A DNA stretch of 64,000 bases. Source: Bryobacterales bacterium (GTDB lineage: Bacteria; Acidobacteriota; Terriglobia; Bryobacterales; Bryobacteraceae). Each line of letters begins with the position of its first letter. Within the stretch, counting starts at the first letter, position 1. Position numbers and translations under genes: made by a program. The stretch is taken from positions 62,001-126,000 of the forward strand of contig DAIDHC010000110.1 of the NCBI GenBank assembly GCA_027452065.1, written 5' to 3'. Of this stretch, positions 8,632 to 26,257 are shown piece after piece. The notes under the pieces were generated by a model. The model did no database searches, had not been told where the DNA came from, and saw only the letters and a list, made by a program, of their open reading frames with translations.

Positions 8632-9756
8632 GTGCTCTCCCAGTTCGAGACACTGCCCGATGCGCTCCGAAGCCGCGGGGTGAGACGGCGGCAGTTTCTG
8701 AAATTCTGCAGCGCGATGGTGGCGACTCTGGCTTTGCCGGACCGGTATTTCGGCCAGGTGGTGGCGGCGCTCGAGGCAAGGAAGCGGCCGGTGCTGGTGT
8801 GGCTGGAATTTCAGGACTGCGCCGGCAACACTGAGTCGATGCTCCGGTCGGGGCATCCGACGGTGGCCGAGACAGTTCTCGAGCTGCTGTCCTGGGAGTA
8901 TCACGAGACCATCATGGCCGGGGCCGGCAAGCAGGCCGAGGCGGTGCTCGACCGGATGGTGAAAGAGCACCGCGGCGAGTACCTGGCTGTGGTGGAGGGC
9001 TCCATCCCGATGGGGGACGGAGGCGTCTACTGCACGATTGGCGGGCGGACAGCCCTCGATATCGCGCGGGGTGTGTGCGGGGCGGCCAAGGCCACCATCG
9101 CCGTGGGGGCATGCGCCTGGGACGGCGGCCTGGTGGCGGCGCGGCCGAATCCCACCGGAGCTGTGGGCCTCGAAGAGGCCGTGCCTTCTGTGCCGGTCGT
9201 GAACCTGGGCGGCTGCCCGCACAATCCCGCCAACACGGCGGCGGTGCTGGTGCATTATCTGACGTTCGGTGAAATGCCGGCGCTCGACCAATACAACCGG
9301 CCGCTGTTCGCCTACGGCAAGCTCATCCACGATCAGTGCGAGCGGAGGGCGCATTTCGACGCCGGCCGCTTCGTGCAGGACTGGGGTGACGAGGGCCACC
9401 GTAAAGGCTGGTGCCTTTACAAAATGGGGTGCAAGGGGCCGGAGGCGACCTTCAATTGCCCCTCGGTGCGGTGGAACGACGGAACAAGCTGGCCGGTGAA
9501 AGCCGGGCATGGGTGCCTGGGGTGCGCCTCGCACCGGTTCTGGGACACGCGATCGCCGTTTTACGAGCGCCTGCCGCACGTGGCGGGCTTCGGCGTGGAC
9601 GTGCCGGCGACGAGTATCGGCATGGGGCTGGCGGGGGTGGTGACGGCGGCGACGGTGGCACACGCTGTTGGCAGCGCTGTGCGGGCCAAGGTCAGGCCAG
9701 AGGAACCGGAGCCGCCGTCCGGTGAGGGAGCCGGCCAGGGTCCGGCGGGAGCCTGA
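8632..9756 (+). CDS. [NiFe]-hydrogenase small subunit, group 1, Tat-exported
   Basis: 374 residues from a GTG with AGGAGGTGG a few bases upstream. It begins with the twin-arginine signal RRRQFLKFCS (18-27), so the folded heterodimer is exported, and ends with a hydrophobic anchor (about 328-350) and a charged tail. It carries the Fe-S relay from the NiFe site to cytochrome b. Proximal cluster ligands by alignment: Cys63, Cys161 (GACAWDGG) and Cys195 (GGCPHNP). The fourth position, normally Cys in CxxC, is Asn66 in DCAGNTES. Distal and medial motifs are intact (HDQC, GWCLYKMGC, FNCP, GCLGC). It lacks the extra Cys pair of standard O2-tolerant enzymes. Subgroup (1f-like?) cannot be fixed by eye. 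Confidence 0.95.
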   Translation: MLSQFETLPDALRSRGVRRRQFLKFCSAMVATLALPDRYFGQVVAALEARKRPVLVWLEFQDCAGNTESMLRSGHPTVAETVLELLSWEYHETIMAGAGKQAEAVLDRMVKEHRGEYLAVVEGSIPMGDGGVYCTIGGRTALDIARGVCGAAKATIAVGACAWDGGLVAARPNPTGAVGLEEAVPSVPVVNLGGCPHNPANTAAVLVHYLTFGEMPALDQYNRPLFAYGKLIHDQCERRAHFDAGRFVQDWGDEGHRKGWCLYKMGCKGPEATFNCPSVRWNDGTSWPVKAGHGCLGCASHRFWDTRSPFYERLPHVAGFGVDVPATSIGMGLAGVVTAATVAHAVGSAVRAKVRPEEPEPPSGEGAGQGPAGA

Positions 9757-9769
9757 AGGAGACAAAACC

Positions 9770-11482
9770 ATGCCACGCATCGTAGTGGACCCGGTGACAA
9801 GGATTGAGGGGCATTTGCGGGTGGAGGCGCAGGTGGAGGGAGGCGCGATCGCCGACGCCTGGAGCTCCGGGACGATGTTCCGCGGAATCGAGATCATTCT
9901 GCGCGGGCGCGACCCGCGGGAGGCCTGGATCTGGACGCAGCGCATCTGCGGCGTTTGCACGACGGTGCACGCCCTCACCTCGGTGCGCGCGGTCGAGGAT
10001 GCGCTCGGCATCGAGGTTCCCGATAATGCCCGCATTATCCGGAACCTGATCGCCGGCACGCAGCTCGTGCAGGATCACGTAATCCACTTCTACCATCTGC
10101 ACGCGCTCGACTGGGTCGACGTGACGCTGGCGCTGAAGGCCGATCCGGGCAAGACGTCGCAGTTGGCCGAATCGATCTCGACCTGGCCGAAGTCGAGCCG
10201 GAATTATTTCAAGGCGGTGCAGGACCGGGTGAAGAAGCTGGTGGACAGCGGGCAGTTGAGCCTGTTTGCCAGCGGCTACTGGGGCCATCCGGCTTACCAT
10301 CTGCCGCCGGAGGCAAACCTGCTGGCGGTTGCTCACTATATCGAGGCACTGGAGTTCCAGCGGGAGTTCATTCGGATTCACTCGGTGCTGGGGGGAAAAA
10401 ATCCCCATCTGCAGACCTACCTGGTGGGAGGGATGGCGTCCTCCATGGACGCCAACGAGCCGGGAGCGACGATCAACACCGAGCGGATCACCCAGCTTCG
10501 GGAGCTGGCGCGGTCGGCTCGGAGTTTTGTCGAGCAGGTGTACGTGCCGGACGTGCTGGCAGTGGCCGGCTTCTATAAGGATTGGTTCGGCCGCGGCGAG
10601 GGGCTCGGGAATTTCCTGGCTTACGGCTGCTACCCCATGGGTTCCATCAAGGACCATGCAAAGTTCTTTCTGCCCCGCGGCATTGTCTTGAACCGCGACC
10701 TGACCCAGGTGCATCCGGTCGATCCGGCCAACATTGCCGAATATGTGAGCCATTCCTGGTATGAGTACAGCGGCGGGGACGCTCAGTCCAAGCATCCTTT
10801 TGACGGCGAGACGAACCCGAAGTACAGCGGGCCGAGGCCGCCGTTTCAGCAGTTGGACACCGAGAAAAAGTATTCGTGGCTCAAGTCCCCGCGCTATCAG
10901 GACCAGCCTATGGAAGTTGGTCCGCTGGCGCGGATGGTGGTTGCCTACGCCTCGGGGCACCAGGAGGTGCGGACGCTGGTGGACGGAGTGCTGGCGAAGC
11001 TGGGAGCGCCGCCGGCGGCTCTGTTTTCGACGCTCGGCCGGGTGGCGGCGCGGGCGATCGAGACCGCGCTGATGGCTCGTCACCTCGAAGGATGGGTCAA
11101 TGAGCTCGACGACCGGATGAGCCACGGCGACGTGCGGATCCACGACGGGCGGCTGTGGGATCCGGCGAGCTGGCCGCGGGAAGCGCGGGGATTCGGCACC
11201 CACGAGGCGCCGCGGGGCGCGCTCGGGCACTGGATCGAGATCGAGGACAAGGCGATCAAGAACTACCAGGCCGTTGTTCCGACGACGTGGAACGCGGGGC
11301 CGCGGGACGCGAAGGGCCAGCGCGGGGCCTACGAGGCGGCGCTGCTGAAGACGCCGGTCGCCGACGGAGAGCGGCCGCTCGAGCTGCTGCGCACGATTCA
11401 CTCCTTCGACCCGTGCCTGGCCTGCGCCGTGCACGTGGCTGACGCGCGCGGCAACACACTGGCGCATTTGCAGGTGGACTGA
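9770..11482 (+). CDS. [NiFe]-hydrogenase large subunit, group 1
   Basis: 570 residues from the ATG at 9770, with GAAGGAG just upstream; the longer open frame from 9668 overlaps the small subunit and is rejected. It binds the NiFe(CN)2CO centre. The L1 motif RICGVCTTVHAL supplies Cys60 and Cys63; the L2 motif DPCLACAVH supplies Cys549 and Cys552. Fifteen residues follow the final His (VADARGNTLAHLQVD), the tail that the maturation protease encoded two genes downstream removes after nickel insertion. The N-terminus VDPVTRIEGHL is typical. It lies 13 bp after the small subunit gene, so the two are cotranscribed. No sign of damage. Confidence 0.97.
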   Translation: MPRIVVDPVTRIEGHLRVEAQVEGGAIADAWSSGTMFRGIEIILRGRDPREAWIWTQRICGVCTTVHALTSVRAVEDALGIEVPDNARIIRNLIAGTQLVQDHVIHFYHLHALDWVDVTLALKADPGKTSQLAESISTWPKSSRNYFKAVQDRVKKLVDSGQLSLFASGYWGHPAYHLPPEANLLAVAHYIEALEFQREFIRIHSVLGGKNPHLQTYLVGGMASSMDANEPGATINTERITQLRELARSARSFVEQVYVPDVLAVAGFYKDWFGRGEGLGNFLAYGCYPMGSIKDHAKFFLPRGIVLNRDLTQVHPVDPANIAEYVSHSWYEYSGGDAQSKHPFDGETNPKYSGPRPPFQQLDTEKKYSWLKSPRYQDQPMEVGPLARMVVAYASGHQEVRTLVDGVLAKLGAPPAALFSTLGRVAARAIETALMARHLEGWVNELDDRMSHGDVRIHDGRLWDPASWPREARGFGTHEAPRGALGHWIEIEDKAIKNYQAVVPTTWNAGPRDAKGQRGAYEAALLKTPVADGERPLELLRTIHSFDPCLACAVHVADARGNTLAHLQVD

Positions 11483-11495
11483 GCGGGAGGCGGCA

Positions 11496-12227
11496 ATGGC
11501 ACCCAGGATTGCATCCACGGGCGGGAAGGTAATCTTCCACCGGGCTTCGACGCCGATGAGGCGGGTGTATGTGTGGGAACTGCCGGTGCGGATCTGGCAT
11601 TGGGTGATGGTGGTGTCAATGGCCGTACTCGCCGCCACCGGCTGCTACATCCACGATCCGTTTCTGGTGACGCATGAGGCCGGAAGCTGGACGATGGGCA
11701 CCGCGCGGTATGTGCACATCATTACCGGGTTCATCTTCGCCGCCGGCTTCCTGCTCCGGCTCTACTGGTTTTACGCCGGCAACCGGTGGGCGCGGTTTCA
11801 GGCGTTTCTGCCCGTCGGGCCCGAGCGGCACCACACGCTGCGCGAAATGCTGAAGTATTACACCTTCTTTCGCTGGCGGCCGCCCGCGCAGATCGGCCAC
11901 AATACTCTGGCCGCGCTGTCGTATCTGGGCGTCTACACTCTGGTGGCTGTCGAGATCGTGATCGGCCTGGTGCTGCTCCGGCAGCCGATGGGGCACGGCC
12001 TGCTGGCCTTCACTCTGGGCTGGCTGCCGCGTTGGATCGACATTCAGTGGCTGCGCACCATTCACTACTTCATCATGTGGGCGTTCGGAATTTTCTTCAT
12101 CCATCACATCTACTCGGCGATCGTCGTCTCGGCGGAAGAGAAGAGCGCGCTGCTGGACAGCATTTTCACGGGATACAAAAGCATTGAGGAAGAGCATTTG
12201 AAGCACGGCGGGCTATTACAGGATTAA
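11496..12227 (+). CDS. Hydrogenase b-type cytochrome subunit
   Basis: 243 residues with four membrane segments (about 32-52, 72-93, 138-162, 190-212). It takes electrons from the small subunit and passes them to the quinone pool; the genome fragment also encodes menaquinone synthesis (mqnP, mqnE). Candidate heme ligands are His35 (RIWHW), His74 (YVHIITG), His190 (TIHYF) and His203/204 (FIHHIYS), as in the HyaC/HupC family. It follows the large subunit by 13 bp. Family members are about 220-250 residues, so the length is normal. Its presence argues for a respiratory uptake enzyme rather than a soluble one. Confidence 0.93.
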   Translation: MAPRIASTGGKVIFHRASTPMRRVYVWELPVRIWHWVMVVSMAVLAATGCYIHDPFLVTHEAGSWTMGTARYVHIITGFIFAAGFLLRLYWFYAGNRWARFQAFLPVGPERHHTLREMLKYYTFFRWRPPAQIGHNTLAALSYLGVYTLVAVEIVIGLVLLRQPMGHGLLAFTLGWLPRWIDIQWLRTIHYFIMWAFGIFFIHHIYSAIVVSAEEKSALLDSIFTGYKSIEEEHLKHGGLLQD

Positions 12228-12236
12228 GGAGAAAAC

Positions 12237-12785
12237 ATGGCGGGAATGCCGGTGGAGATCGTGGTCTTCGGAATCGGGAACGTGCTGCACGGCGACGACG
12301 GCGCGGGAGTGTACGCGCTGGAGCGCCTCAAGAAAGATTTGCGGGTCGGGCGGGGCGTTCGCCTGGTGGACGGGGGAACGCTGGGGCTGGAACTCCTCGA
12401 TTATGCGCGCGGCGGCTCGCACCTGCTTTTTCTGGACGCGGTGGACGCCGGCCAGGAACCCGGGACGCTCGTGCGCTTGCGGGGTTCGCGGCTGGGAGCT
12501 CTCCGGACCAAGGGGGACGTGCATCAGTTGGGGATCGCGGATCTGCTGGGGGCGCTCAGACTGGTGTCGAGGCGCCGCCGCGCCATCGTGCTGATCGGCG
12601 TGCAGCCGTCCAGCACGGATTGGGGGACGGCGCTGACCGAACCGGTGCACGCGGCGCTGCCCCAGATGGTAGAGGCGGCGGTGGAGCAGTTGGAGCGCTG
12701 GGGGCAGAGAACGCGTCGCGTCGTGGTTCCTCAGGTGCGCGAGGGCGGCCTCAGGCAGCGCGTGGGAGTGCGCTTCGGAGACTGA
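12237..12785 (+). CDS. Hydrogenase maturation endopeptidase (HyaD/HupD family)
   Basis: 182 residues. It cleaves the C-terminal tail of the large subunit once nickel is in place. The family signature GIGNVLHGDDGAGVYALERL is at the N-terminus, with the nickel-sensing Asp/Glu positions, followed by VDGGTLGLELLDY and LFLDAVDAG. The middle Asp and a later His (DVHQLG) match the known metal-sensing set. It is the last gene of the structural operon, 9 bp after the cytochrome gene with an AAGGAG site. Its 3' end overlaps the end of the convergent membrane-protein gene by 35 bp. The C-terminal 25 residues are basic and not conserved in the family. Confidence 0.94.
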   Translation: MAGMPVEIVVFGIGNVLHGDDGAGVYALERLKKDLRVGRGVRLVDGGTLGLELLDYARGGSHLLFLDAVDAGQEPGTLVRLRGSRLGALRTKGDVHQLGIADLLGALRLVSRRRRAIVLIGVQPSSTDWGTALTEPVHAALPQMVEAAVEQLERWGQRTRRVVVPQVREGGLRQRVGVRFGD

Positions 12786-13107
12786 AGCCGGTCAGCGCGG
12801 CAGTCACGATACAGTTCACCAGCGGCCGGAAGTCAAGCAGGTTTCCGATCAGGAAGCCGAACCAGAGTGCGAAGCCGATCCAGGCCAGGCATCCGGCGAA
12901 ACTGATCCAGGCCAAAGCCCTGTCACCATGGCGCGAGGCCCGGAGAATGTTGATCGCGGCCAGCAAAAAGACGGCCAACGAAGCCGACAGCGCCCACAAC
13001 AGGCTCATCGGCTCGGCCCGATAGACCCGCCAGGAGCCGAGTGCATGTCCCAGCCCGCCGAGAGCGAGCAGGATGCCGAAAGCGCGGTCGAGGGTACGCA
13101 GGGTCAT
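12751..13107 (-). CDS. Small four-helix membrane protein, unknown function
   Basis: 118 residues when started at the ATG at 13107 (MTLRTLDRAFGILLALGG); the open frame runs further up to 13164 without a better start. Four hydrophobic segments fill almost the whole length, with short basic loops between (ILRASRHGDRALAW). The overall pattern recalls small DoxX-like or DUF-type membrane proteins, but no signature residue fixes a family. It is convergent with the hydrogenase protease gene, overlapping its 3' end by 35 bp, and follows the 1164-residue membrane protein gene on the same strand by 40 bp, so it may be in that transcript. Function unknown. Confidence 0.65.
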   Translation of the reverse strand: MTLRTLDRAFGILLALGGLGHALGSWRVYRAEPMSLLWALSASLAVFLLAAINILRASRHGDRALAWISFAGCLAWIGFALWFGFLIGNLLDFRPLVNCIVTAALTGFSLRSALPRAA

Positions 13108-13147
13108 TGGATGAAACGATAACGCAATACGGGGCCGCGAGGCGTGG

Positions 13148-16100
13148 TTAGCGAAGGTTCTCAATGGTAGGCGCTACCCAGGACATGAGTGTATCGCCGA
13201 GCGAGGGGAACAGGTGGTAGAGGACGCCGAGGAGCGGGAGGACGCCGAGGGCGGTGACGTGGAGGTAGAACTCCCAGTTCAGTTTGCCGGGCCGGGTGCC
13301 GGAGATGCGGCTGAGAATGCGGTTGCGTTCCAGGCTGGCAAAGGCGCGGACCACGAAGAAACCGAGCACGAGGAAGGCGGCGGCCAGGAGGCGGCCGACG
13401 GTTTGGGGCGCCTGGGGTGAGTAGGTATTAAAGGCGACCAGGAGGACCAGGAGGGTGACCGAGAGGGTCCAGGCGATCTGCTGGAGCTGGGCGGCCACAT
13501 AGATGACGTAGCGGGCGATCTGGAGGGCGACGTAGTCGGTGGCGGCGTTGCGGGAGGCGTCCTCGGGAGGGACTCCGGCGGCGGAGGTGGGATCGGGCCG
13601 TTCGGACACGACGTGCGTGGTCCAGTATTGGTAGAGCTCGCCCTGGAGCAGTTCGGCGCCGATGCGGGCGCGGACGGCGCGGAAGGCGCGGCGGGAGGCG
13701 AAGAAGCCGGGCTCTTCAATGAGCGACTGCGCGGCATCGCGGGTGTTGAGATACGCCTTGCGGAAACGTTCGAACTGGGAAGCGGCGGCGGGAGCGACAG
13801 CGAGGACCTTGCGGTTGTGGAGGGCGATGAGCGATTGGCGCGCGAAGGCGGGATCATTGAAATGGCGCTGCGTCGGCCAAAGGGCCCAGATGGCGCGGCG
13901 GGGCCAGCCGCGGGTGACGCGAATGAAGCCGGTCATGAGCGGAGAGGCGTCGAAGTTGGTGAGGAATTTTTCAAACAGCGCCCAGAGCTGGACGAAATCG
14001 TAGGTGCCGAGGCAGAGGAAGCAGAATAGCGCGAGTTCACTCGAGATGAGGAGGAGGTTATAGGGTATGGACTCGAACGAGGACAGATACTGCCCTCGGT
14101 GAAGCAGACCAAGCGCGGCGCCGGCGATGAGGATGCAGTACAGAACCCTGAGGCGCCACTGGGTTTTGTCCAGGTGCAGAGGGCTGAGGATCTGAAGGTT
14201 GATGTCGTGGTATTGGCGGGCCAGGGCGCGGTTGTTTTCCTTTTTGCCGATGGGGAGGCGCGGACGATCGACGCCGGCGGCGGTGTGCCGGCGGAGCAGG
14301 CTCCAGGCGATGACGAAAAATCCGAGCAGGAGGACCAGGACGGGGACGGCGGGAGAAAGGCCGGAGTAAAGCTCGAAGGAACGGAAGCGAAAGAATCGGC
14401 CCTGCCATCGGATGTCCTTGTTGGGCGCCGGCGGATCGCAGGAGAACCACCATGCCGCGGCGATGAGGACCGAAGCGGCCGAAACAGCGAGGACGGCGAG
14501 GGTGCTTTGGGTGCGGGCGCCGGCAAAACGAGGCCGCCAGGCGAAGGCGACGAAGCCGGCGGCGATGATGGGGGCGAGGAAGGCTGCGGCGCCAAGGGCG
14601 GCGAAGCAGGGGACGGCCAGCCGGTTGTCCGGTGCGAATTCTTTGGCGGATAAGGTGATCCAAAGGGGCAGCGCGAGAACCCACTGGGCGAGGGCGAGCA
14701 ACAGGAGCAGGGCAATGAGGCTGAACCAGCGCGGAGGGAAGGCGGCGTTGCCATAGGCGAGGTTGAGCCAGCGGGGGCGATGGCGCTCGGAGCCGGAACG
14801 GTTCGCCCGCCAGACCGCGGCACAGGCAAGGAAGGTGAAAAGCGCCAGCAGGAGTTCCAGAAAGAACCAGCTTCGGGGAGGGCGGAGCGCGTAGAACAGG
14901 GCGGAAGAGGCCGGAACACGGGTGAGGAAGCCCTCGTGGAGCGAGTGGTCCGGGTGAAAGATCTCCAGTGGGAGGAAGCCGTAGCGGCTGACGGTCATGA
15001 GCCACAGGGGCGGATGATCGGATTGCGGATCGCTGGGATCTTTATAGTCCCGGAGAGTGAACGGAGTTCTGATCAGGCCAAGGTCCTTGAGCAACAGGCC
15101 GGTGACGTTGTACAGGCTTTCTGACGCCATGGCGGGGAAAACCGTGTGGTCTTCGTAGCGCGCCTGGGAGTCGAGAAAGACGGTTATCGGGTAGGTGGAC
15201 AGGAACAGCGTTCCGGTGAGCGCCGACGAACTGGTAGCGGCGATGAACATCACGTCGGCGTCGGGGACTAGCACGCGGGTGTCGGGACTGCGCTGGCGGA
15301 TGACCCGGGCAAGGAACAGCTCATCGAGAACATTGGTGGCGACAAGATTGACCAGGCGGATGCCGCGGCGGCGAAATTCGGATGCCAACTGGTCGACGAC
15401 GGCGTTTTGAGACTGGGGCGTTTGCTCCCGGGAAAAGGACGGGACGCTATCCTCGCCGGTGGTTGGGTCCTGGAGGGTGAAGGCCGGGCCCTGAAGAGGC
15501 ATCCCGCGCATGGGCAAAGTCTGCCCGGTCTCCTCGCGATAGGCGTTTCGGAGGTGGGCGACGTCGCGGGAGTAGTGGTACATGGGGATGTCGCAATTCG
15601 GGACGCGCTGGGACTGTGATTTTTGCTCGGCGTCTTGCTTTCCCGGCTCGCGGTTGAAGAGGCCGCCGAACGCGGTTTCGTCCTCGGTCAGGTAGGCGGC
15701 ATCGACGGCGGAGATTCGCTGCTGGACGAGCAGTTCGCAGAAAGCCGCTTTGGAGGTAGCAGAGTTCTGAATGCCGGACGCGAAGGGAACCCCGGTGGCT
15801 TTGGTGAAGCTCAGCGCCCGCTCCTGGCTGGCGGGCGTTCCGCCGCGGACGAAGACGCGGCCAGTGTCGAGACCCTTGGGCAAGGTCTGCATCAGTCGCG
15901 CCAGGGAGTCGAAAGAACCCGAAAAGCTGGGTCCGAGGACGCCAAGCGAGGCTCGCGGCGGCAGAAGCGGCGAGGCCAGACGGAGGGCCGATTCGAACGC
16001 CTGGGGGCTGACGCCGGCCGTTGGCGTCTCGCCCGCGACGAATACGATCAGCCATCCATCTGCCGGAACTTCGCCTGAGCGGCGGAACAAAAGCAGCCCG

Positions 16101-16756: not shown

Positions 16757-19069
16757 TTAGAGCTGGGAGCCGGCGATGAGTGCCTGGCCGAGCGCGATGC
16801 CTCCGTCGTTGGCCGGGACGCGGGAGTGCAGAAACACTTCCATTCCCTGGCGGCGCAGGGCGGCGGTTGTGCGTTCGAGTAAGTAGTGGTTCTGAAAGGT
16901 TCCGCCGCTGAGGCACACCCGGCGAAGGCCGGACTCGCGGGAAAGCGTGGCGCAGACCGAGGCAGTGAGCGACGCGAGCGTGTTGTGAAAGCGGGCCGAA
17001 ACGAGCGGCACCGGTGCGCCGCGGGCGAGGTCCTCGGCGATCGCTCGAATGGCCGGGCGTAGGTCAACGACGCGCGGCGAGGGAGGGCCGACGTCCCAGG
17101 GGTAGCAGTCATCGACGCCGGAGGCGGCCGCGGCTTCCAGTTCGATAGCCGCCTGGCCTTCGTAAGTGACGGCGTGGCGGAGCCCGCACAGCGAGGCGAC
17201 GGCGTCAAACAGGCGGCCGCACGACGAGCTGAGGACAGAGTTGACTCGCCGCTCGATCATCTGAACGGCGAGCCGCACGTCGCCGGGCGGAACGGCGGAA
17301 TACAGGGGGAGGCCGGCAGGCGCCCGCCCGCTGTCGAAAGCGTCGTGGAGATAGGCGAGAGCCATGCGCCAGGGCTGCCGCACGCTCGTGTCGCCGCCCG
17401 ACTGGACCGTGTAGCGCAAGTGCGCGGCCCGCGTGAAGCCGGAGTAATCGCAGACCAGGAACTCGCCGCCCCACAGATTACCGTCGGCCCCGTAGCCGGT
17501 ACCGTCAAAAGCCACGCCGAGGACGGTGCCCTCGAGGCCGTTGTCCGCCATGCAGGAGGCAATATGCGCATGGTGGTGCTGGACCGGGATCGGAGGCAGG
17601 CCGGACATTTCGCGGGCGAAGCGTGTCGAGAGGTAGCCCGGATGGAGGTCGTGAGCCGCGGCGCGGGGCCTGAGCCGGAAAAAGCGCTTCATGTGATCGA
17701 GCGTTTCCTCGAAAAAGCGCAACGTTTCGAGGTTTTCAAGATCGCCGATGTGCTGGCTGAGCACGGCGTAGCGGTCCCGCGTCAGGCAGAAGGCGTTTTT
17801 CAGGTCGGCGCCACAGGCCAGCAGTTCCGGCGCCGGGGCGTGGAGGGCGATCGGCGCCGGAGCGTAGCCGCGGGCGCGGCGGATGAGGCGCTCGCGGCCC
17901 TCAAAGACACGCACCACGGAATCGTCCAGGCGGGTTGCGATCGGCCGGTTGTGGACGACGATCGCGTCGGCGATCGAGTTGAGACGGTCGAAGGCTTCCT
18001 CGTTGCCGCTCACGATGGGTTCTTCGCTCAGGTTGCCGCTGGTCATGACGAGGACCTGCGGCGGCGGAGACTCTCCCCGCGCTTCCTCGAACAGGAGAGC
18101 GTGAAGAGGAGTGTAGGGCAGGAAGAAGCCCAGCAGATTCGTTCCCGGCGCGATGCCGGGCGCCAGCGGCACCGGGGAGTGGGGGCGGAGCAGGATGATC
18201 GGCTTGCGCGGGCTGAGGAGCGCCGCGCGTTCGGCAGCGGTGACGGGGGCGAGCGCCTCGATAGCCGCGAGATCGCGCGCCATGAGGGCAAAAGGCTTGT
18301 CCGACCGGCGCTTGCGGTCGCGCAGCCGAGTGACGGCCGAAGCGTTGGCGGCGTCGCAGCAAAGATGGAAGCCCCCGAGCCCTTTGATCGCGAGGATACG
18401 GCCGGCCCCCAGCAGGGCGCGGATGCGAACCAGCACCTCCGAAGCCGGACGTCGGGGTCCGGGCTGGCCGGCGGCGTCGAGCAACGATAGCCAGGGCCCG
18501 CACACCGGGCAGGCATTGGGCTGCGCGTCGAGGCGGCGGTTGGATGGATCGACGTATTCCGCCTCGCAGTCCGGGCACATCGGGAAATCGGCCAGGGTGG
18601 TGAGCGGCCGGTCGTACGGCACGGCGCGGACGATCGAGTACCGGGGTCCGCAGTTGGTGCAGTTGATGAACGGGTACCCGAACCGGCGGTCGGAGGGATC
18701 CGCCAGCTCCCGGAGGCAGTCCGGGCAGACGGCAGTGTCGGGAGGGATGAAGGTGAAGGCGCCCGGTTCGGCGACACTCGGGAGAATGTCGAAGCCGCGG
18801 GAGCCCTCCACCGGAATGCCGGCGACGGAGAGTGAATCGATCGAGGCCAATGTGGGGGCTTCCAAGGGCAGCCGGGTCACGAACTCGGTCATCGCGGCCG
18901 CAGGGCCCTCGATTTCCACCACCACGCCCGAAGTTTGATTCCATACCGCACCGGCCAAACCCAGCGACTGGGCGAGCCGCCACAGAAAAGGGCGAAAGCC
19001 GACCCCCTGGACAATGCCCGTGACGACGATCCGCTGACGCAGCGTGGCTGGCGGCTTCACTACCGTCAC
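16757..19069 (-). CDS. hypF: Carbamoyltransferase HypF
   Basis: About 770 residues from GTG at 19069 (GTG at 19060 is the alternative); the open frame upstream to 19498 crosses the hypC gene and is rejected. HypF makes the carbamoyl group that HypE turns into the cyanide ligands of the NiFe centre. Domains in order: acylphosphatase-like (RIVVTGIVQGVGFRPFLW), two zinc-finger repeats (CPDCLRELADP...CTNCGPRYS and CPDCEAEY...CPVCGP), YrdC-like (ILAIKGLGGFHLCCDA) and Kae1-like (PVQHHHAHIASCMADNG). The length is normal for the family. It is transcribed away from hypCDEAB, with a shared 228-bp control region. Confidence 0.96.
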   Translation of the reverse strand: MTVVKPPATLRQRIVVTGIVQGVGFRPFLWRLAQSLGLAGAVWNQTSGVVVEIEGPAAAMTEFVTRLPLEAPTLASIDSLSVAGIPVEGSRGFDILPSVAEPGAFTFIPPDTAVCPDCLRELADPSDRRFGYPFINCTNCGPRYSIVRAVPYDRPLTTLADFPMCPDCEAEYVDPSNRRLDAQPNACPVCGPWLSLLDAAGQPGPRRPASEVLVRIRALLGAGRILAIKGLGGFHLCCDAANASAVTRLRDRKRRSDKPFALMARDLAAIEALAPVTAAERAALLSPRKPIILLRPHSPVPLAPGIAPGTNLLGFFLPYTPLHALLFEEARGESPPPQVLVMTSGNLSEEPIVSGNEEAFDRLNSIADAIVVHNRPIATRLDDSVVRVFEGRERLIRRARGYAPAPIALHAPAPELLACGADLKNAFCLTRDRYAVLSQHIGDLENLETLRFFEETLDHMKRFFRLRPRAAAHDLHPGYLSTRFAREMSGLPPIPVQHHHAHIASCMADNGLEGTVLGVAFDGTGYGADGNLWGGEFLVCDYSGFTRAAHLRYTVQSGGDTSVRQPWRMALAYLHDAFDSGRAPAGLPLYSAVPPGDVRLAVQMIERRVNSVLSSSCGRLFDAVASLCGLRHAVTYEGQAAIELEAAAASGVDDCYPWDVGPPSPRVVDLRPAIRAIAEDLARGAPVPLVSARFHNTLASLTASVCATLSRESGLRRVCLSGGTFQNHYLLERTTAALRRQGMEVFLHSRVPANDGGIALGQALIAGSQL

Positions 19070-19297: not shown

Positions 19298-19570
19298 ATG
19301 TGTCTGGCGATACCGGGCAGGATCATCGAGAAACAGGCGCTCGCCGGGGAGACGGAAGCGCGTGTGGCAATGGTCGAATTCGGCACCATCCGGCGACCGG
19401 TGTATCTGGATCTGCTTCCCGAGGCCGAAGTCGGAGATTACGTCCTCGTGCACACCGGGTTCGCGATCAGCGTAGTCGACGGAGAAGAGGCGCGGCATAA
19501 CTTCGCGGTGCTCGAAAAGCAGGGGCGGCTGGAGGAGGAAGGGCTGGCGGAGAAAGCGGAGGGGGCGTGA
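19298..19570 (+). CDS. hypC: Hydrogenase assembly chaperone HypC
   Basis: 90 residues from the ATG at 19298, chosen because the family always starts MC; the open frame from 19235 is too long. HypC carries the Fe(CN)2CO unit with HypD, using Cys2 in MCLAIPGRI. The conserved [21 protein letters not shown] and FAIS segments follow. The C-terminus ([18 protein letters not shown]) is a short charged helix slightly longer than usual. First gene of the hypCDEAB operon; its stop overlaps the GTG start of hypD by 4 bp. A GGGAGG-type ribosome site precedes it. Confidence 0.95.
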
Positions 19571-20673
19571 AATACCTCGACGAGTACCGGGACCCGGAAT
19601 GGGCCCGGCGGCTGGCCGGGATGATCGCCGAGACGGCGACGCGGCGCTGGGTGGTGATGGAGGTGTGCGGGGGACAAACGCACACTCTGATGCGCTATGG
19701 CATCGACGAAATGGTGGGTGGCCAGGTGGAACTCGTGCACGGGCCGGGCTGTCCGGTGTGCGTGACGCCGGTCGAGGTGGTGGACAAAGCGGTGGCTATC
19801 GCCGGCCGGCTGGGCGTAATCTTTGTTTCCTACGGCGACATGTTGCGCGTCCCGGGGACGCGGTCGGACCTCTACCGGGTGAAAGCCGAGGGCGGCGACG
19901 TGCGCGTTGTGTACTCGCCCATGGACGCGGTGGAACTGGCGCGGCGCAACCCGGAGCGCCGGGTCGTGTTCTTCGGGATCGGCTTCGAGACAACGGCTCC
20001 CGGCAACGCGATGGCCGTGTGGAAGGCGCGCAGGGAGGGACTGACGAATTTCTCGATGCTCGCCTCCCACGTGCTGGTGCCGCCGGCGATCGACATGATT
20101 CTGGCGTCTCCGGGCAACCGGGTGCAGGGCTTCATCGGACCGGGCCATGTGTGCACCGTGACCGGGTATGCGGACTATGAGGGGCTGGCGGCGAAATACC
20201 GGACGCCGATCGTTGTCGGGGGGTTTGAACCCGTTGACCTTCTGGAGGCCATCCTGATGCTGGTTCGGCAACTGGAGCAGGGGCGGTGCGAGGTGGAAAA
20301 CCAGTACGCGCGGAGCGTGAAGCGGCTGGGAAACGCGGCCGCGCAGAAAGTAGTTGCCGAAGTGTTTGAAGTGGCGGACCGGCCGTGGCGGGGGATTGGG
20401 ACCATACCGCGCAGCGGGCTGAGGATACGCCAGGAGTACGTGCCCTGGGATGCCGAGCGGGTCTACGAAGTGGAGGATATCGGAGGTCCGGAACCGGAGG
20501 GCTGCATCAGCGCCGAAGTGTTGCAGGGGCGGAAGAAGCCGGAGGAGTGCGCCGAATTTGGCCGCGGTTGCACGCCGGCTCATCCGCTGGGAGCCCCGAT
20601 GGTGTCGTCCGAGGGGGCTTGCGCGGCGTTCTATCTCTACCGCCGTCGCACCGGGTTCGGGAGCGCGGCATGA
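19567..20673 (+). CDS. hypD: Hydrogenase formation protein HypD
   Basis: 368 residues from GTG at 19567. HypD is the 4Fe-4S scaffold on which, with HypC, the Fe(CN)2CO moiety is built. Conserved motifs are all present: [15 protein letters not shown] with the iron-binding Cys, [35 protein letters not shown], and the Cys-rich C-terminus [17 protein letters not shown] and [20 protein letters not shown] that binds the cluster. Length is normal. It overlaps hypC by GTGA and hypE by ATGA, so the operon is tightly coupled. No anomalies. Confidence 0.97.
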
Positions 20674-21716
20674 GCGGGACCGGGCTGGCATGCCCACTGC
20701 CTCTGGCGCTGCCGGGCCGCGTGGTACTCGGCCACGGCAGCGGCGGCCGGATGAGCGGCGAATTGATCCGGGACCTCTTTCTTCCGGCCTACGGCAACGC
20801 CATGCTGGGGCGGATGGAGGACCAGGCAGTGGTCGGGATCGGCGGCTGCCGTCTGGCGATGACGACGGATTCGTTCGTGGTCAAGCCGCTGTTCTTCCGC
20901 GGCGGCGACATCGGGTCTCTCGCCGTCCACGGGACCGTCAACGATCTGGCGATGGGCGGGGCAAGGCCGCTCTATCTGAGCGCGGCGTTCATTATTGAGG
21001 AAGGGCTCGAGATGGAGAGCCTGCGGAGGATCGCCGGCTCGCTGGGGCGCGCGGCGGCGCGCTGCGGAGTGGAAGTGGTGACCGGGGACACCAAGGTCGT
21101 CGAGAAGGGGAGCGGCGACGGCGTCTTTATCAACACCACCGGGATCGGCCTGGTGCGCGAGGGCGTGAAGCTGTCGGCGGCGGGGGCCCGGCCGGGCGAC
21201 GCCGTTTTACTCAGCGGACCCATCGGTGAGCACGGCATCGCCATCCTGTCCGAGCGCGAAGGGCTGGAGTTCGAGGGCGAGATGGTGAGCGATTCGGCGC
21301 CGCTCGACACACTGGTGGCGGCGATGCTGGCCGCCAGCCGCGAGATCCATTGCCTCAGGGACCCGACACGCGGCGGGTTGTCGAGCGCGCTCAACGAGTT
21401 GGCCGCGCAGTCCGGCGTGGGGATCGAGATCGAGGAAGGGGCGATCCCGGTCAGGGAGTCCGTGCGGGGCGCCTGCGAACTGCTCGGCCTGGATCCTCTC
21501 TATGTGGCCAACGAAGGCAAGCTGGTGGCGATCGTCGACGAGCGCGCGGCCGGGGCGGTGCTGGAGGCCATGCGGTCGCACCCGCTGGGCGCGGAAGCGG
21601 CACGGATCGGGCGCGTCAGCGGCGAGGACCGCGGGTGGGTGCGGATGAGGACCACCTTCGGGACCACCCGCGTCGTGGACATGCTGCCCGGGGACCAGCT
21701 TCCGCGGATCTGTTGA
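20670..21716 (+). CDS. hypE: Hydrogenase expression/formation protein HypE
   Basis: 348 residues from the ATG at 20670, which overlaps the hypD stop as ATGA; the frame open from 20385 is inside hypD. HypE dehydrates its own carbamoylated C-terminal Cys to thiocyanate and donates cyanide. The C-terminus ends PRIC, the modified Cys motif. The PurM-like ATP fold is visible: [54 protein letters not shown] and [16 protein letters not shown]. Eleven bases separate it from hypA. Normal length and complete. Confidence 0.97.
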
Positions 21717-21727
21717 AGGAGCGCCGG

Positions 21728-21979
21728 ATGCACGAGCTCTCGATTGCAGCCTCGATTCTGGAGACGGTTAAGCGGCAGGCGGCCGCCAACGGTGGCGGAA
21801 GAGTCAAAAAGGCGGGTGTGCGGATCGGGGCGCTTTCGGGCGTCGATACCGAGTCACTGCGATTTTGCTTCGGAGCGATAGTTGCAGGAACGCGGGAGGC
21901 GGGCTGCGAGCTGGAGATTGAATTCGAGGCGGCCGGCGAGGCCTTGGATCTGGCCTGGGTGGATCTGGAGGACGGATGA
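21728..21979 (+). CDS. hypA: HypA-like nickel chaperone lacking the zinc-finger domain
   Basis: 83 residues where HypA proteins have about 113. The N-terminal nickel-binding half is intact: MHELSIAASILETVKRQAA with the Met-His-Glu ligands, VRIGALSGVDTESLRFCF and GCELEIEFEA. It stops where the family's two CxxC zinc motifs would begin, and the next gene (hypB) starts in the overlapping ATGA, so no zinc part remains in any frame. HypA passes nickel to HypB and the large subunit; the zinc domain is structural and takes part in dimer and partner contacts. It may be a natural short form helped by another protein. Good GGAG site upstream. Confidence 0.88.
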   Translation: MHELSIAASILETVKRQAAANGGGRVKKAGVRIGALSGVDTESLRFCFGAIVAGTREAGCELEIEFEAAGEALDLAWVDLEDG

Positions 21980-22662
21980 AACGGCTGGTGCTTGAGAAGA
22001 AGGTGCTGAGCGAGAACGATCGCATTGCGGCCCGGCTGCGCGCTCAGTTTGCCGAGCACGGGATTTATTGTCTGAACTTCATCAGTTCGCCCGGCTCGGG
22101 CAAAACGTCGCTGCTCGAGCGCACGCTCGAGCGGATGCCGCCGGGCCGCCGCGTCGCCGTGCTGACCGGCGACATCCAGACCGACAACGACGCCCGGCGC
22201 CTGGCCCGGTTCGGCTTTCCCGTGAAGCAGATCACAACGGCCGGCGCCTGCCATCTGGACGCCTCGATGATTGAGCGGGCGCTGGCGGACTGGTCGCTCA
22301 ACGATCTGGACCTGCTGCTGATCGAGAACGTCGGCAACCTGGTGTGCCCCACCAGCTACGACCTGGGCGAGCACGCCAAAATCGTCGTCCTCAGCGTCAC
22401 CGAGGGAGAGGACAAACCGCTCAAGTATCCGGCGACGTTCCACAAGGCGTCCCTGATGATCCTGAACAAAACGGACCTGCTGCCGCACGTTCCGTTTGAC
22501 TGGCGGCTGGCGCGGAGTTATGCATGGGAGGTGCATCCTACCCTCGAAGTGATCCTGGTCTCCTGCCTGAACGGCGAAGGGCTGGGCGAGTGGTGCGAAT
22601 GGTTGGATCGTAAATGCGGCGAGTCCGCCGTCGTTGCGGCGGGGGAAGCGTCGGCTAGATGA
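21976..22662 (+). CDS. hypB: Hydrogenase nickel incorporation GTPase HypB
   Basis: 228 residues. HypB is a SIMIBI GTPase that drives nickel insertion with HypA. P-loop SSPGSGKTSLLERTL, the metal/dimer motif TAGACHLDASMIE with Cys-His, the ENVGNLVCP motif with the third metal Cys, and the G4 motif NKTDLL are present. The His-rich stretch and the N-terminal CxxCGC nickel site of some HypB proteins are absent, so nickel storage is not expected. It overlaps the short hypA by 4 bp and is the last hyp gene. The tail after the G domain ends in about 15 Ala/Ser/Arg residues without family similarity. Confidence 0.96.
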   Translation: MKRLVLEKKVLSENDRIAARLRAQFAEHGIYCLNFISSPGSGKTSLLERTLERMPPGRRVAVLTGDIQTDNDARRLARFGFPVKQITTAGACHLDASMIERALADWSLNDLDLLLIENVGNLVCPTSYDLGEHAKIVVLSVTEGEDKPLKYPATFHKASLMILNKTDLLPHVPFDWRLARSYAWEVHPTLEVILVSCLNGEGLGEWCEWLDRKCGESAVVAAGEASAR

Positions 22663-22735: not shown

Positions 22736-22861
22736 ATGTCTCAAAGCGAATCGGCCGCTTGCGGTGGGCATGGATGGGGCAAACGGGTTCGGGGCCGGAG
22801 CGAACCGGATGGAATTGATGGGGAAAGAGAAGCAAGTAGCTCTTTGGAGAGGGAGATATGA
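22736..22861 (+). CDS. 41-residue upstream ORF coupled to the decaheme cytochrome gene
   Basis: ATG at 22736 follows GAGGAG by 7 nt. The frame encodes 41 mostly polar residues (starts MSQSESAACGGHGWGKRVRG) and its stop overlaps the start of the decaheme gene as ATGA. It has no signal peptide, membrane segment or cofactor motif. It could be a regulatory leader peptide or simply a frame that feeds ribosomes to the next start; the next start also has its own GGAGAGGGAG site. Translation is likely, function unknown. No homologue known to me. Confidence 0.45.
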   Translation: MSQSESAACGGHGWGKRVRGRSEPDGIDGEREASSSLEREI

Positions 22862-25137
22862 AGGGCGAACAGTCTTATTTCAGTAGAATATTGAGCAAAC
22901 GGAATCTTTTTATCGCGCTGCTGCTGGGGGGCGTCATGGTATCTCCGGGCAGCGTACGCTCGAATTTCAACAAACATCAGAAGGCGTACTATCTGGACCC
23001 CGCGGTCGCTGTCTTTGTGCGGCCGGGCGTGGTGGTGACGGTGACCGGGGCGAAAATTGACTCCAGCGGGACGATGAGCGTGAGCTTCAATGTCACCGAT
23101 CCCGAGGGCCTGCCGCTGGACTGGAGCGGCGTGACGACGCCGGGCGCGATGCGGGGCAGCGCGACGCTGTCGGTGCTGCCGCACGGCAAGAACCAGTATG
23201 TGAATTACGTGACGAGCACGACGACAAACCAGACGACGGGCGCGACGGCGGTGACGCCGGGCGACGAGGACCTGGTGCCAGCGCAGATGACCACGCAGGC
23301 GACCGGTTCGTATACCTTCACGTTCCAGGCCAAGGCACCGGCCGGGTTTGACGCCACGGCGACACACACGGTGGGAATTTACGTGGGGCGGGACCTCACG
23401 TCCTTCAACCTGGGCAGCTACACCGCCGACAACGTATTCAGCTTCATTCCGGCGGGCGGGCTGGTGACCGAGTATCACGACGAAATCCGGACGCAGACCT
23501 GTAACAAGTGCCACGCGCCGCTGGCGGCTCACAGCCTGCGGCATACGGTGGCGTTGTGCGTGCTGTGCCACACCAATGGCGCGGAGGACGTGAACACCGG
23601 AAACACGGTGGACTTCAAGGTATTCATCCACAAGATCCACATGGGCTCCAGCCTGCCGAGCGTGCAGGCGGGCAAACCGTACCAGATCATCGGCTTCCAC
23701 GGCGCTGTCGATTTTTCGGACGTCGTGTTCCCGGCCGATGCGCGCAACTGCACCATGTGCCACGAGGGCGGAACTGTGCAGCCGCCGAACTCGGCGCAGC
23801 CGGGGCAGGGCGGATACGGCGCGGCGGCCGAGACGACGATCACGGCGAGCGGGAATCCGGCGCCGGAGAATGCCGGCGCGACGACGGGAACCGGCACGGC
23901 GCTGGTGAACCCGGCGGGCGCGGCCTGCGGGAGCGCGGGGAATCCGGGCTGCAATCCGGAGTTGATGCCGTGGCCGCCGAAAGGCGCCGACTACTGGAAT
24001 CAGCATCCGAGCGCGGCGGCCTGCGGGTCCTGCCACGACAACGTAAACCTCGCCAGCGGAGTGAACCATGCGGGCGGGCCGCAACCGGACGACAGCCAGT
24101 GCAAGAACTGTCACCAGGTGCAGGGCGAGCTGCCGTTTGACGCCTCGATCGTTGGTGCGCACACCATTCCGCAATTCGCTCCGGGACTTCCGGGCATTGT
24201 GTTCAAACTGCTGAGCGTGACCGGCGGGACGGCCGGGACGGCGCCGACAGTGACCTATACGCTGAACGACAAATCGGGCAAGCCGCTGAATCCGGCGACC
24301 ATGGGCCGCCTCACCATGACCATGGCGGGTTCCACCGGCGATTACCAGAACGCGATTTCCGAGGATATCCGCAAAGGTTCGACGGGCGCGAGCGGGACGT
24401 ATCAGTACACGTTCACCAACACCGTGCCGGCCGGAGCCACCGGGAGCTTTAGCATCGGCATTGAAGGCTACAATAGCGTCACTCTACTGGCGGGAACGAC
24501 CGCGCAGCAGACGGTGCGCGACGTGGGCTTCAACGACGTGATCAGCTTCTCGGTGGACGGCTCGACGGTGGCTCCGCACCCGGTGGAGATCAGCCAGGCG
24601 CAGTGCAACGCCTGCCATTTCGCGATCTCGCTCCACGGGACGATCCGGCAGAACGTTCAGTACTGCATCATGTGCCACAACCCCACGGCGACCGATAGCT
24701 CGCAGCGTCCGGCCAACGCGGGCCCTGCCCAGACCATCGACTTCCCGATCCTGGTGCATCGCATCCATTTGGGTTCGCAGGCGGCCTCGATGGCGGGCGG
24801 AGAAAACGCCCAGTATCAGCCGTTCATCGTATGGGGCTTCGGCCAGTCGAAGGTCGATCTGAGCAACGCCGCGTTCCCGGGCAACCTGGAGGCCTGCCAG
24901 AAGTGCCATACCAACGGCTCGCAGGAACTGCCGCTTCCCTCTACCCGGATCGCAGTGAACACGCCTCAGGCGTTCATCAATCCGGCGCCTCCGACGGTGG
25001 CGGCCTGCACGGCCTGCCACATCGCGCAGTCGGCTTCGGCTCACGCGCTCGGGAACCTGAACTCCCTCGGCGAGAGCTGCGACGTATGCCACGGGCAGGG
25101 CGCGGCCTTTGCGGTCGACCAGGTCCATGCGCAATAG
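22858..25137 (+). CDS. Decaheme c-type cytochrome, OmcA/MtrC family
   Basis: 759 residues with an N-terminal signal-like segment (about 17-32) and ten CxxCH heme sites: CNKCH, CVLCH, CTMCH, CGSCH, CKNCH, then CNACH, CIMCH, CQKCH, CTACH, CDVCH. The two pentaheme halves alternate with beta domains (about 40-200 and 440-560), the order seen in OmcA/MtrC surface cytochromes that pass electrons to metals or partners outside the cell. No lipobox Cys is obvious, so anchoring is uncertain. It follows the hyp operon on the same strand and precedes a tetraheme cytochrome by 7 bp. No mtrA or mtrB porin genes are in the window. Confidence 0.93.
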   Translation: MKGEQSYFSRILSKRNLFIALLLGGVMVSPGSVRSNFNKHQKAYYLDPAVAVFVRPGVVVTVTGAKIDSSGTMSVSFNVTDPEGLPLDWSGVTTPGAMRGSATLSVLPHGKNQYVNYVTSTTTNQTTGATAVTPGDEDLVPAQMTTQATGSYTFTFQAKAPAGFDATATHTVGIYVGRDLTSFNLGSYTADNVFSFIPAGGLVTEYHDEIRTQTCNKCHAPLAAHSLRHTVALCVLCHTNGAEDVNTGNTVDFKVFIHKIHMGSSLPSVQAGKPYQIIGFHGAVDFSDVVFPADARNCTMCHEGGTVQPPNSAQPGQGGYGAAAETTITASGNPAPENAGATTGTGTALVNPAGAACGSAGNPGCNPELMPWPPKGADYWNQHPSAAACGSCHDNVNLASGVNHAGGPQPDDSQCKNCHQVQGELPFDASIVGAHTIPQFAPGLPGIVFKLLSVTGGTAGTAPTVTYTLNDKSGKPLNPATMGRLTMTMAGSTGDYQNAISEDIRKGSTGASGTYQYTFTNTVPAGATGSFSIGIEGYNSVTLLAGTTAQQTVRDVGFNDVISFSVDGSTVAPHPVEISQAQCNACHFAISLHGTIRQNVQYCIMCHNPTATDSSQRPANAGPAQTIDFPILVHRIHLGSQAASMAGGENAQYQPFIVWGFGQSKVDLSNAAFPGNLEACQKCHTNGSQELPLPSTRIAVNTPQAFINPAPPTVAACTACHIAQSASAHALGNLNSLGESCDVCHGQGAAFAVDQVHAQ

Positions 25138-25144
25138 CAGCGGC

Positions 25145-26257
25145 ATGAAACGGCTCGCCCTTCAGGCGGGCTGGTTGTGGGCGGGCGTCCTTATCTGGTC
25201 CGGCGCGGGCCGGGCCTATGACGGGGACGCCCGCCGCGGGGCAGCCCTGATTCAGGATCAGGGCTGCACTCATTGTCATTCGATCGCCGGACAGGGCGGC
25301 AACTCCGCGCCCGATCTGGGAAGCCGGATCGCCCGGCAGTACACGCCGGCTTCGATGGCGAGCGTGATGTGGAACCACGCCCCGGCCATGTGGTCCGCAA
25401 TGGGATCCCAGGGAATCACCGTGCCGCAGATCGACCGCGCCGGCGCCGAGGATCTGTTCCTGTATCTCTATTCCGTGCGGTTCTTCGAGCAGCCGGGCGA
25501 AGTGGAGCGGGGCAAAAAGATCCTCGAGTCGCGCCATTGCGGCGACTGTCATTCGCTCAAGGGCGGCGGCGGTGGACCGGGCAAGCCGATCTCGGAGTGG
25601 ACTAATGTCACCGATCCGATCGCGCTGGCACAGCAGATGTGGAATCACTCCTCAAACATGAAAGAGGCCGTGAAAAAGAAGAAGTACAACTGGATTCTGC
25701 TCAGCGGGCAGGACCTTACCGATATTGCTTTGTACGTGCGCAAGGGGCCCGCGGCCTCGCAAGCGCTGCCCGATATCCGGATGGGGGGCGCGGCCGAGGG
25801 GGCCAAGCTGTTTCAGGAGAAAGGCTGCTCCGGATGCCATAAGGGCTCGCGGGCGCTCGACCGGTTGCTGTCCAACCAGTCGCTCACTGACATCGCGGCC
25901 GACATGTGGAATCACGCGCCGCGGATGACCGGCGTAACCCCGTTGAGCCTGGACGAAATGCGGGCTCTGCTCGGCTATGTGTGGGAGCAGCAATATCTGG
26001 GCACCCCGGGTGAAGCGCGCCGGGGGAGCACGTTGTTTCAAAAGAAGCATTGCTCGGACTGCCATGACGCCGCCGGCTCCGATGTGCCCCGTCTCGACGC
26101 CAGCAAGAAGCCCTACACGCCCACTGGAATGGTGGCCGCCTTGTGGAAGCACGGGCCGGCGATGCTCGATCGCATGAAGTCGAAACAGATCCCGTGGCCC
26201 CGGCTTTCGCCGTCCGACATGGCGGATCTGATCGCCTATCTGAACTCACGGACCTGA
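25145..26257 (+). CDS. Tetraheme cytochrome c made of four repeated domains
   Basis: 370 residues from the ATG at 25145 with a signal peptide (1-24). Four class-I-like cytochrome units follow, each starting with a heme site (CTHCH, CGDCH, CSGCH, CSDCH) and each carrying the same motif about 35 residues later: MWNHAPAM, MWNHSSNM, MWNHAPRM, LWKHGPAM. The conserved Met (or His) there is the likely axial ligand. The repeats show growth by duplication. It is 7 bp after the decaheme gene, so both are probably cotranscribed and form one electron-transfer path. The exact partner is unknown. Confidence 0.88.
   Translation: MKRLALQAGWLWAGVLIWSGAGRAYDGDARRGAALIQDQGCTHCHSIAGQGGNSAPDLGSRIARQYTPASMASVMWNHAPAMWSAMGSQGITVPQIDRAGAEDLFLYLYSVRFFEQPGEVERGKKILESRHCGDCHSLKGGGGGPGKPISEWTNVTDPIALAQQMWNHSSNMKEAVKKKKYNWILLSGQDLTDIALYVRKGPAASQALPDIRMGGAAEGAKLFQEKGCSGCHKGSRALDRLLSNQSLTDIAADMWNHAPRMTGVTPLSLDEMRALLGYVWEQQYLGTPGEARRGSTLFQKKHCSDCHDAAGSDVPRLDASKKPYTPTGMVAALWKHGPAMLDRMKSKQIPWPRLSPSDMADLIAYLNSRT

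Follow-up and report, generated by a model that had tools for sequence, protein, structure and literature searches.

The window, the whole 64,000-nucleotide stretch of DNA analysed in this study, contains a short hypA gene (21728-21979, + strand) whose 83-residue product, MHELSIAASILETVKRQAAANGGGRVKKAGVRIGALSGVDTESLRFCFGAIVAGTREAGCELEIEFEAAGEALDLAWVDLEDG, is, as judged from its sequence and genomic setting, most likely a working, zinc-independent HypA. Rather than being truncated at the C-terminus, the protein has lost its zinc loop by an internal excision between two nickel-domain strands, and zinc-less short HypA of this kind is rare, yet recurrent.

Excision of the zinc hairpin from HypA

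The 83-residue protein matches the HypA profile PF01155 with 61.3 bits (cut-off 28.9) over profile positions 1-67 of 112, and its 55.5 bits against the HypA equivalog TIGR00100 lie below the cut-off of 88.1 bits. Codons 1-3 (21728-21736) encode the MHE nickel motif, intact as the initial annotation had described it and invariant across short and long HypA in our alignment. At codon 40 (21845-21847) an Asp occupies the alignment position of Asp40, a proposed nickel ligand in Helicobacter pylori HypA, and this residue is invariant in the nine short forms compared; all the nickel-site residues known from the H. pylori literature (His2, Glu3, and Asp40) are present. As to the zinc site, marked in HypA by two CxxC motifs, no CxxC was found in the product, confirming the earlier description of a HypA without a zinc-finger domain. 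No CxxC occurs in any reading frame from 21881 to 22300 either, and thus no frameshift near 21970 could restore the zinc finger. The sequencing error that had been considered at about this position, hiding a CxxC-containing tail, can be set aside on these grounds and because the same form occurs in independent assemblies. A search for a second hypA with PF01155 across the window's genome (90% complete) returned a single match, the short form, and the full-length hypA suspected elsewhere was not found. In total, the protein shares with HypA the PF01155 score, the MHE motif, the alpha/beta nickel domain with its C-terminal strand, and the coupling to hypB and the hyp set, and departs from it in the zinc site and the TIGR00100 score. 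It is a homologous zinc-less variant that probably works like HypA.

The initial annotation had placed the end of the product exactly at the family domain border, with half of the protein missing. Alignment and structure modelling rule out such a truncation. In a same-family alignment, the short ...LEIEFEAAGEALDLAWVDLEDG stands opposite the full-length ...LDLEYCPRRNRC--CxxC loop--GGDELEFAYMEIEET. The final 11-14 residues thus form the C-terminal strand of the nickel domain, and nothing but an internal hairpin of ~35 residues has been lost. Residues 68-83 match the C-terminal strand of full-length HypA. According to alignments and model, the excision point is a turn at codons 68-72 (21929-21943, +), which replaces the CxxC...CxxC hairpin. 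Codons 73-80 (21944-21967, +; LDLAWVDL) encode the retained beta strand, which was assigned by DSSP of the model (E73-80) and superposes on the last residues of 3a43, 5aun, and 6g81. The strand is present in all short HypA forms in the alignments, in which one HypA row (L025) is clipped at the N-terminus and E. coli HypA and HypB served as reference sequences; no conclusion depends on the latter.

The AlphaFold model of the 83-residue protein, a prediction whose input alignment included long homologues, has a mean pLDDT of 94.4 and consists of helix 2-20, strand 26-34, helix 41-52, strand 61-67, and strand 73-80. When compared with solved HypA structures by VIA-align, it gave Z scores of 14.0 (5yxy), 13.8 (3a43), 13.2 (5aun), and 13.0 (6g81), with 81-83 residues superposed at 1.5-2.0 Å; the next unrelated fold reached Z 7.2, and Foldseek was concordant. 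The superposition runs from the first to the last chain residues of the solved proteins (1-136 or 1-117), jumping the zinc domain. Apart from the zinc hairpin, the fold of the short HypA is predicted to be complete.

The hyp set and its hydrogenases

The hypA stop and the hypB start share an ATGA at 21976-21979, as the initial annotation had noticed. The hypB gene (21976-22662, +; TIGR00073, 270 bits) encodes 228 residues with intact CHL and NLVCP metal-site motifs and an N-terminus that is not Cys- or His-rich. On the same strand lie hypC (19298-19570; TIGR00074, 70.2 bits), hypD (19567-20673; TIGR00075, 471 bits), and hypE (20670-21716, start approximate; TIGR02124, 459.6 bits), and hypF is divergent (16757-19030, - strand, start approximate, the listed ORF reaching 19498; TIGR00143, 759 bits). 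All five genes pass the NCBIfam cut-offs, in agreement with the earlier view that the rest of the hyp set is complete. Two genes lie just after hypB: 22858-25137 (+) encodes a multihaem cytochrome whose domains are of the MtrC/MtrF type, and 25109-26257 (+) encodes a product containing several cytochrome c domains. It is possible that these cytochromes (22858-26257) link hydrogen oxidation to extracellular electron transfer.

A [NiFe] hydrogenase, group-1-like by our own reading of hydrogenase motifs (as is the group-3-like label below), is encoded 10 kb upstream of the short hypA. It comprises a small subunit (8632-9756, +, start approximate), identified by sequence and 67% identical to the ORF adjoining the large subunit in L093, and a large subunit (9770-11482, +; PF00374, 778.8 bits) with intact RICGVC and SFDPCLAC nickel motifs. 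These are followed by a cytochrome b-like membrane subunit (11496-12227, +) and a hydrogenase maturation endopeptidase (12237-12785, +), both assigned by sequence and position and both with relatives in other short-HypA hydrogenase operons. The same genome (G000) encodes a second, group-3-like large subunit on contig 71 (L030, G000:C71:7434-8672) with intact nickel motifs, and the one short HypA presumably serves this enzyme as well. Large subunits of genomes with only the short form retain both nickel (Cys) motifs; those seen in G005 and G022 are group-3-like only. Since group-1-like and group-3-like large subunits both occur in short-only genomes, a single short HypA probably serves different hydrogenase classes.

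At most short loci, hypB lies directly 3' of hypA with a 4-nt overlap. The HypB partners of short HypA retain the CHL and NLVCP motifs, and no column of the HypB alignment separates partners of short HypA from those of long HypA. Nothing therefore suggests a rewired HypB partner, and a compensating change in HypB is ruled out as far as the alignment columns go. The HypB match next to the zinc-less HypA of G345 (G345:C4:122276-122908) reads through one TGA.

Distribution, selection, and origin of the short form

The initial annotation proposed comparing hypA lengths in other acidobacterial hyp operons, and this comparison revealed the same short form in Bryobacteraceae and in two other families. 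Within Bryobacteraceae it occurs in the window's genome and three congeneric genomes (G000-G003), and also in G005, G022, G030, G017, and G034; in G019 the hypA locus is cut by a contig end. G017 and G034 carry a full-length copy in addition, as does G345. In G001-G003, G005, G022, G030, and G368, which are 92-99% complete, the short form is the sole PF01155 match, and it is also the sole HypA in five genomes reached via named loci (L091, L093, L095, L101, and L141). A scan of named sequences yielded 80 HypA loci, ten of which are zinc-less with a complete reading frame: nine come from Bryobacteraceae, Bryobacterales or 'Acidobacteria/Acidobacteriia' assemblies, and one, of 80 residues, from Deltaproteobacteria bacterium GWC2_42_11 (L141). 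Three sets of genomes were compared with a short-form profile. Among 396 Acidobacteriota genomes, the window's genome, G368, and G345 alone gave end-to-end matches, G368 and G345 each representing one other acidobacterial family. In the phylum of L141 (247 genomes), the only such matches were in G454 itself and in G659, the latter being of the divergent kind described below. Of 299 Pseudomonadota genomes, 86 matched HypA, none of them end to end. All three counts are approximate, being based on match ranges among the matches listed. G664 (L230) was rejected as a short form, its match range suggesting a short protein but its sequence being full length with CxxC. The weak PF01155 matches L027 and L028 resemble FmdB-type zinc ribbons by eye and were not retained as HypA. 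The HypA of G735 lies at a contig end, and in seven Paraburkholderia/Burkholderia HypA (L155, L158, L159, L161, L162, L164, and L165) a CxC takes the place of the second CxxC (RCLACG...QCECGS).

Among close relatives, dN/dS is 0.12-0.14 (L016-L018) and 0.14-0.16 (L091, L093, and L094), and by this measure the short hypA is kept by purifying selection. The HypA tree, built on 83 columns, was poorly resolved, and the HypB tree (74 rows) was used instead for the question of origin. Explaining the short forms on this tree takes six changes. The AU test rejected all short forms as one clade (p 1.4e-6) and did not reject the Bryobacteraceae short forms as one clade (p 0.19). L064 (G368) is nested among long forms from other families, and L066 (G345) is paired with a long form. 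Given these placements and the rejected single clade, at least three separate losses of the zinc loop took place in Acidobacteriota. If the L141 gene was not transferred, its lineage adds one further loss; L141 has no hypB alongside and is absent from the HypB tree. At this locus (10001-13621) hypC, a large ORF and hypD come after the zinc-less hypA, in this order, with hypB on another contig, and the large ORF looks, by eye, like a CO-dehydrogenase catalytic subunit.

A divergent zinc-less protein, which we call HypA', was found in L020, L021, L229, L261, and L262. Like the short HypA, it starts with MHE, lacks the zinc loop, and keeps the C-terminal strand; unlike it, HypA' belongs to an operon of the order protease-hypA'-hypF-hypC-hypD-hypE, with hypB not adjacent. 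The full order was observed in L238, L287, L288, and L289, and the G020 contig (L290) contains the protease and hypA' only. Positions of hypA' are 7561-7827 in L238, 1501-1761 in L021, 998-1258 (- strand) in L229, ~5369-5626 in L287, and 5409-5669 in L288. A hydrogenase large subunit lies near the operon in G134, G435, and G013, and no HypB above cut-off was found in the whole genomes of G013, G020, and G659. This suggests that HypA' is another way of arriving at a minimal HypA, in this case with no HypB, and its operons possibly represent a HypB-independent route of nickel insertion.

A probable minimal HypA and its relation to known systems

We consider it likely that the 83-residue protein is a functional, minimal HypA. 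The short form is often the sole hypA found, it keeps the C-terminal strand and has a confidently predicted fold, its dN/dS is low, it is coupled to hypB within a full hyp operon, the hydrogenases are intact, the loop was lost repeatedly, and no zinc loop was found elsewhere in the window's genome; together these observations favour the first of the two options left by the initial annotation, namely that nickel delivery would work here without the zinc domain. HypA can probably do its job without the zinc loop, and in the most economical reading the nickel domain alone would suffice for nickel transfer. The short HypA would take nickel from HypB via its N-terminal amine, His2, Glu3, and Asp40, dock on the hydrogenase large subunit, and deliver nickel as an ordinary HypA does. 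It would do without the roles of the zinc loop, that is, loop stabilisation, pH and nickel sensing of the H. pylori type, and an extra ligand of the His98 type. With somewhat less assurance, we favour the broader proposal that the zinc domain is a dispensable regulatory insert in a complete 80-residue nickel chaperone, removed independently several times, and that the resulting minimal HypA needs no zinc to load hydrogenases of both the group 1-like and the group 3-like kind.

The finding that speaks against a functional short HypA comes from H. pylori, in which changing zinc-site Cys to Ala or Asp lowers hydrogenase activity to 9-60% (PMC5557546), indicating that the site matters where it is present. 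A damaged loop may, however, harm HypA more than an absent one, since point mutations may cause misfolding that a clean excision avoids. The need of H. pylori for an intact zinc site could also mean that a partner in trans, such as a zinc ribbon or a SlyD-like protein, unrecognisable as a HypA zinc loop by sequence, supplies the missing function. A profile of the zinc loop alone gave weak matches of 22-26 residues in G001, G003, G005, G030, and G368, but these reach only 19-26 bits, and there was no match at E <= 0.01 in the window's genome, G002, or G022. A zinc loop relocated to another gene of the window's genome is excluded at this threshold, and the second option of the initial annotation, that another protein provides the zinc domain, gains no support from this search or from that for a second hypA. 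Nor did the hyp and hydrogenase queries reveal a common extra gene beside the short-hypA operons, and a partner in trans is unlikely.

That high nickel can bypass the loss of hypAB in laboratory mutants (PMC12134894) is what lends some plausibility to a decaying remnant, with hydrogenases that are either not made or owe their maturation to HypB alone or to ambient nickel; but the low dN/dS values, the conserved strand, MHE and D40, the precise excision recurring in unrelated lineages, and the persistence of the short form across genus and family make this very unlikely. It is more improbable still that the short protein is an extra and that a full-length hypA in the unassembled part of each genome does the work. 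Both forms do coexist in G034, G017, and G345, and a second hypA may possibly lie in the gap of the 90%-complete window genome, but missing the long gene in all of the 92-99% complete short-only genomes and the five reached via named loci is unlikely. Most genomes compared are metagenome assemblies, and yet a sequencing or assembly artefact is barely conceivable, given the same form in many independent assemblies, the absence of CxxC from every nearby frame, and the conserved hypB start at the junction.

The functional reading of the short HypA differs from the current description of the family. According to one review, every HypA protein possesses both a nickel site and a CxxC zinc site (PMC7055735), and the two domains are presented as standard in a review from 2025 (PMC12134894). 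The statement of a universal zinc site and the losses of the H. pylori mutants have so far led to the zinc loop being read as part of the mechanism. We found no earlier report of HypA without the zinc domain in the open-licence papers searched, and a naturally zinc-less HypA contradicts the published statement of a universal zinc site. Such a protein, repeatedly arisen and under selection, would mean that nickel transfer is separable from zinc regulation. It also offers a protein of ~80 residues for work on structure and mechanism. With it, the long-debated function of the zinc loop can be tested directly, by removing the loop or grafting it.

Full-length HypA of Bryobacteraceae/Terriglobia (e.g. 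L107, L106, and L098) are ~40-50% identical to the short form, with hypB directly downstream and a similar C-terminal motif, GDELELAYLEVE, whereas the 37-residue CPRRHRCxxC...CPxCG loop is theirs only. HypA of H. pylori (6g81) has the same nickel-domain fold, and the short form keeps its nickel ligand positions His2, Glu3, and the proposed Asp40 (PMC7055735) but lacks the zinc site C74/C77/C91/C94 that is needed there for full hydrogenase activity. Thermococcus kodakarensis HypA (3a43, 5aun, and 5yxy) shares the N-terminal nickel-domain fold, MHE, and the C-terminal strand, with 82-83 residues superposing at 1.5-1.8 Å; in contrast, both its CxxC...CxxC zinc domain and His98, described in the literature as becoming part of the nickel site when T. 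kodakarensis HypA and HypB form a complex, are missing from the short HypA.
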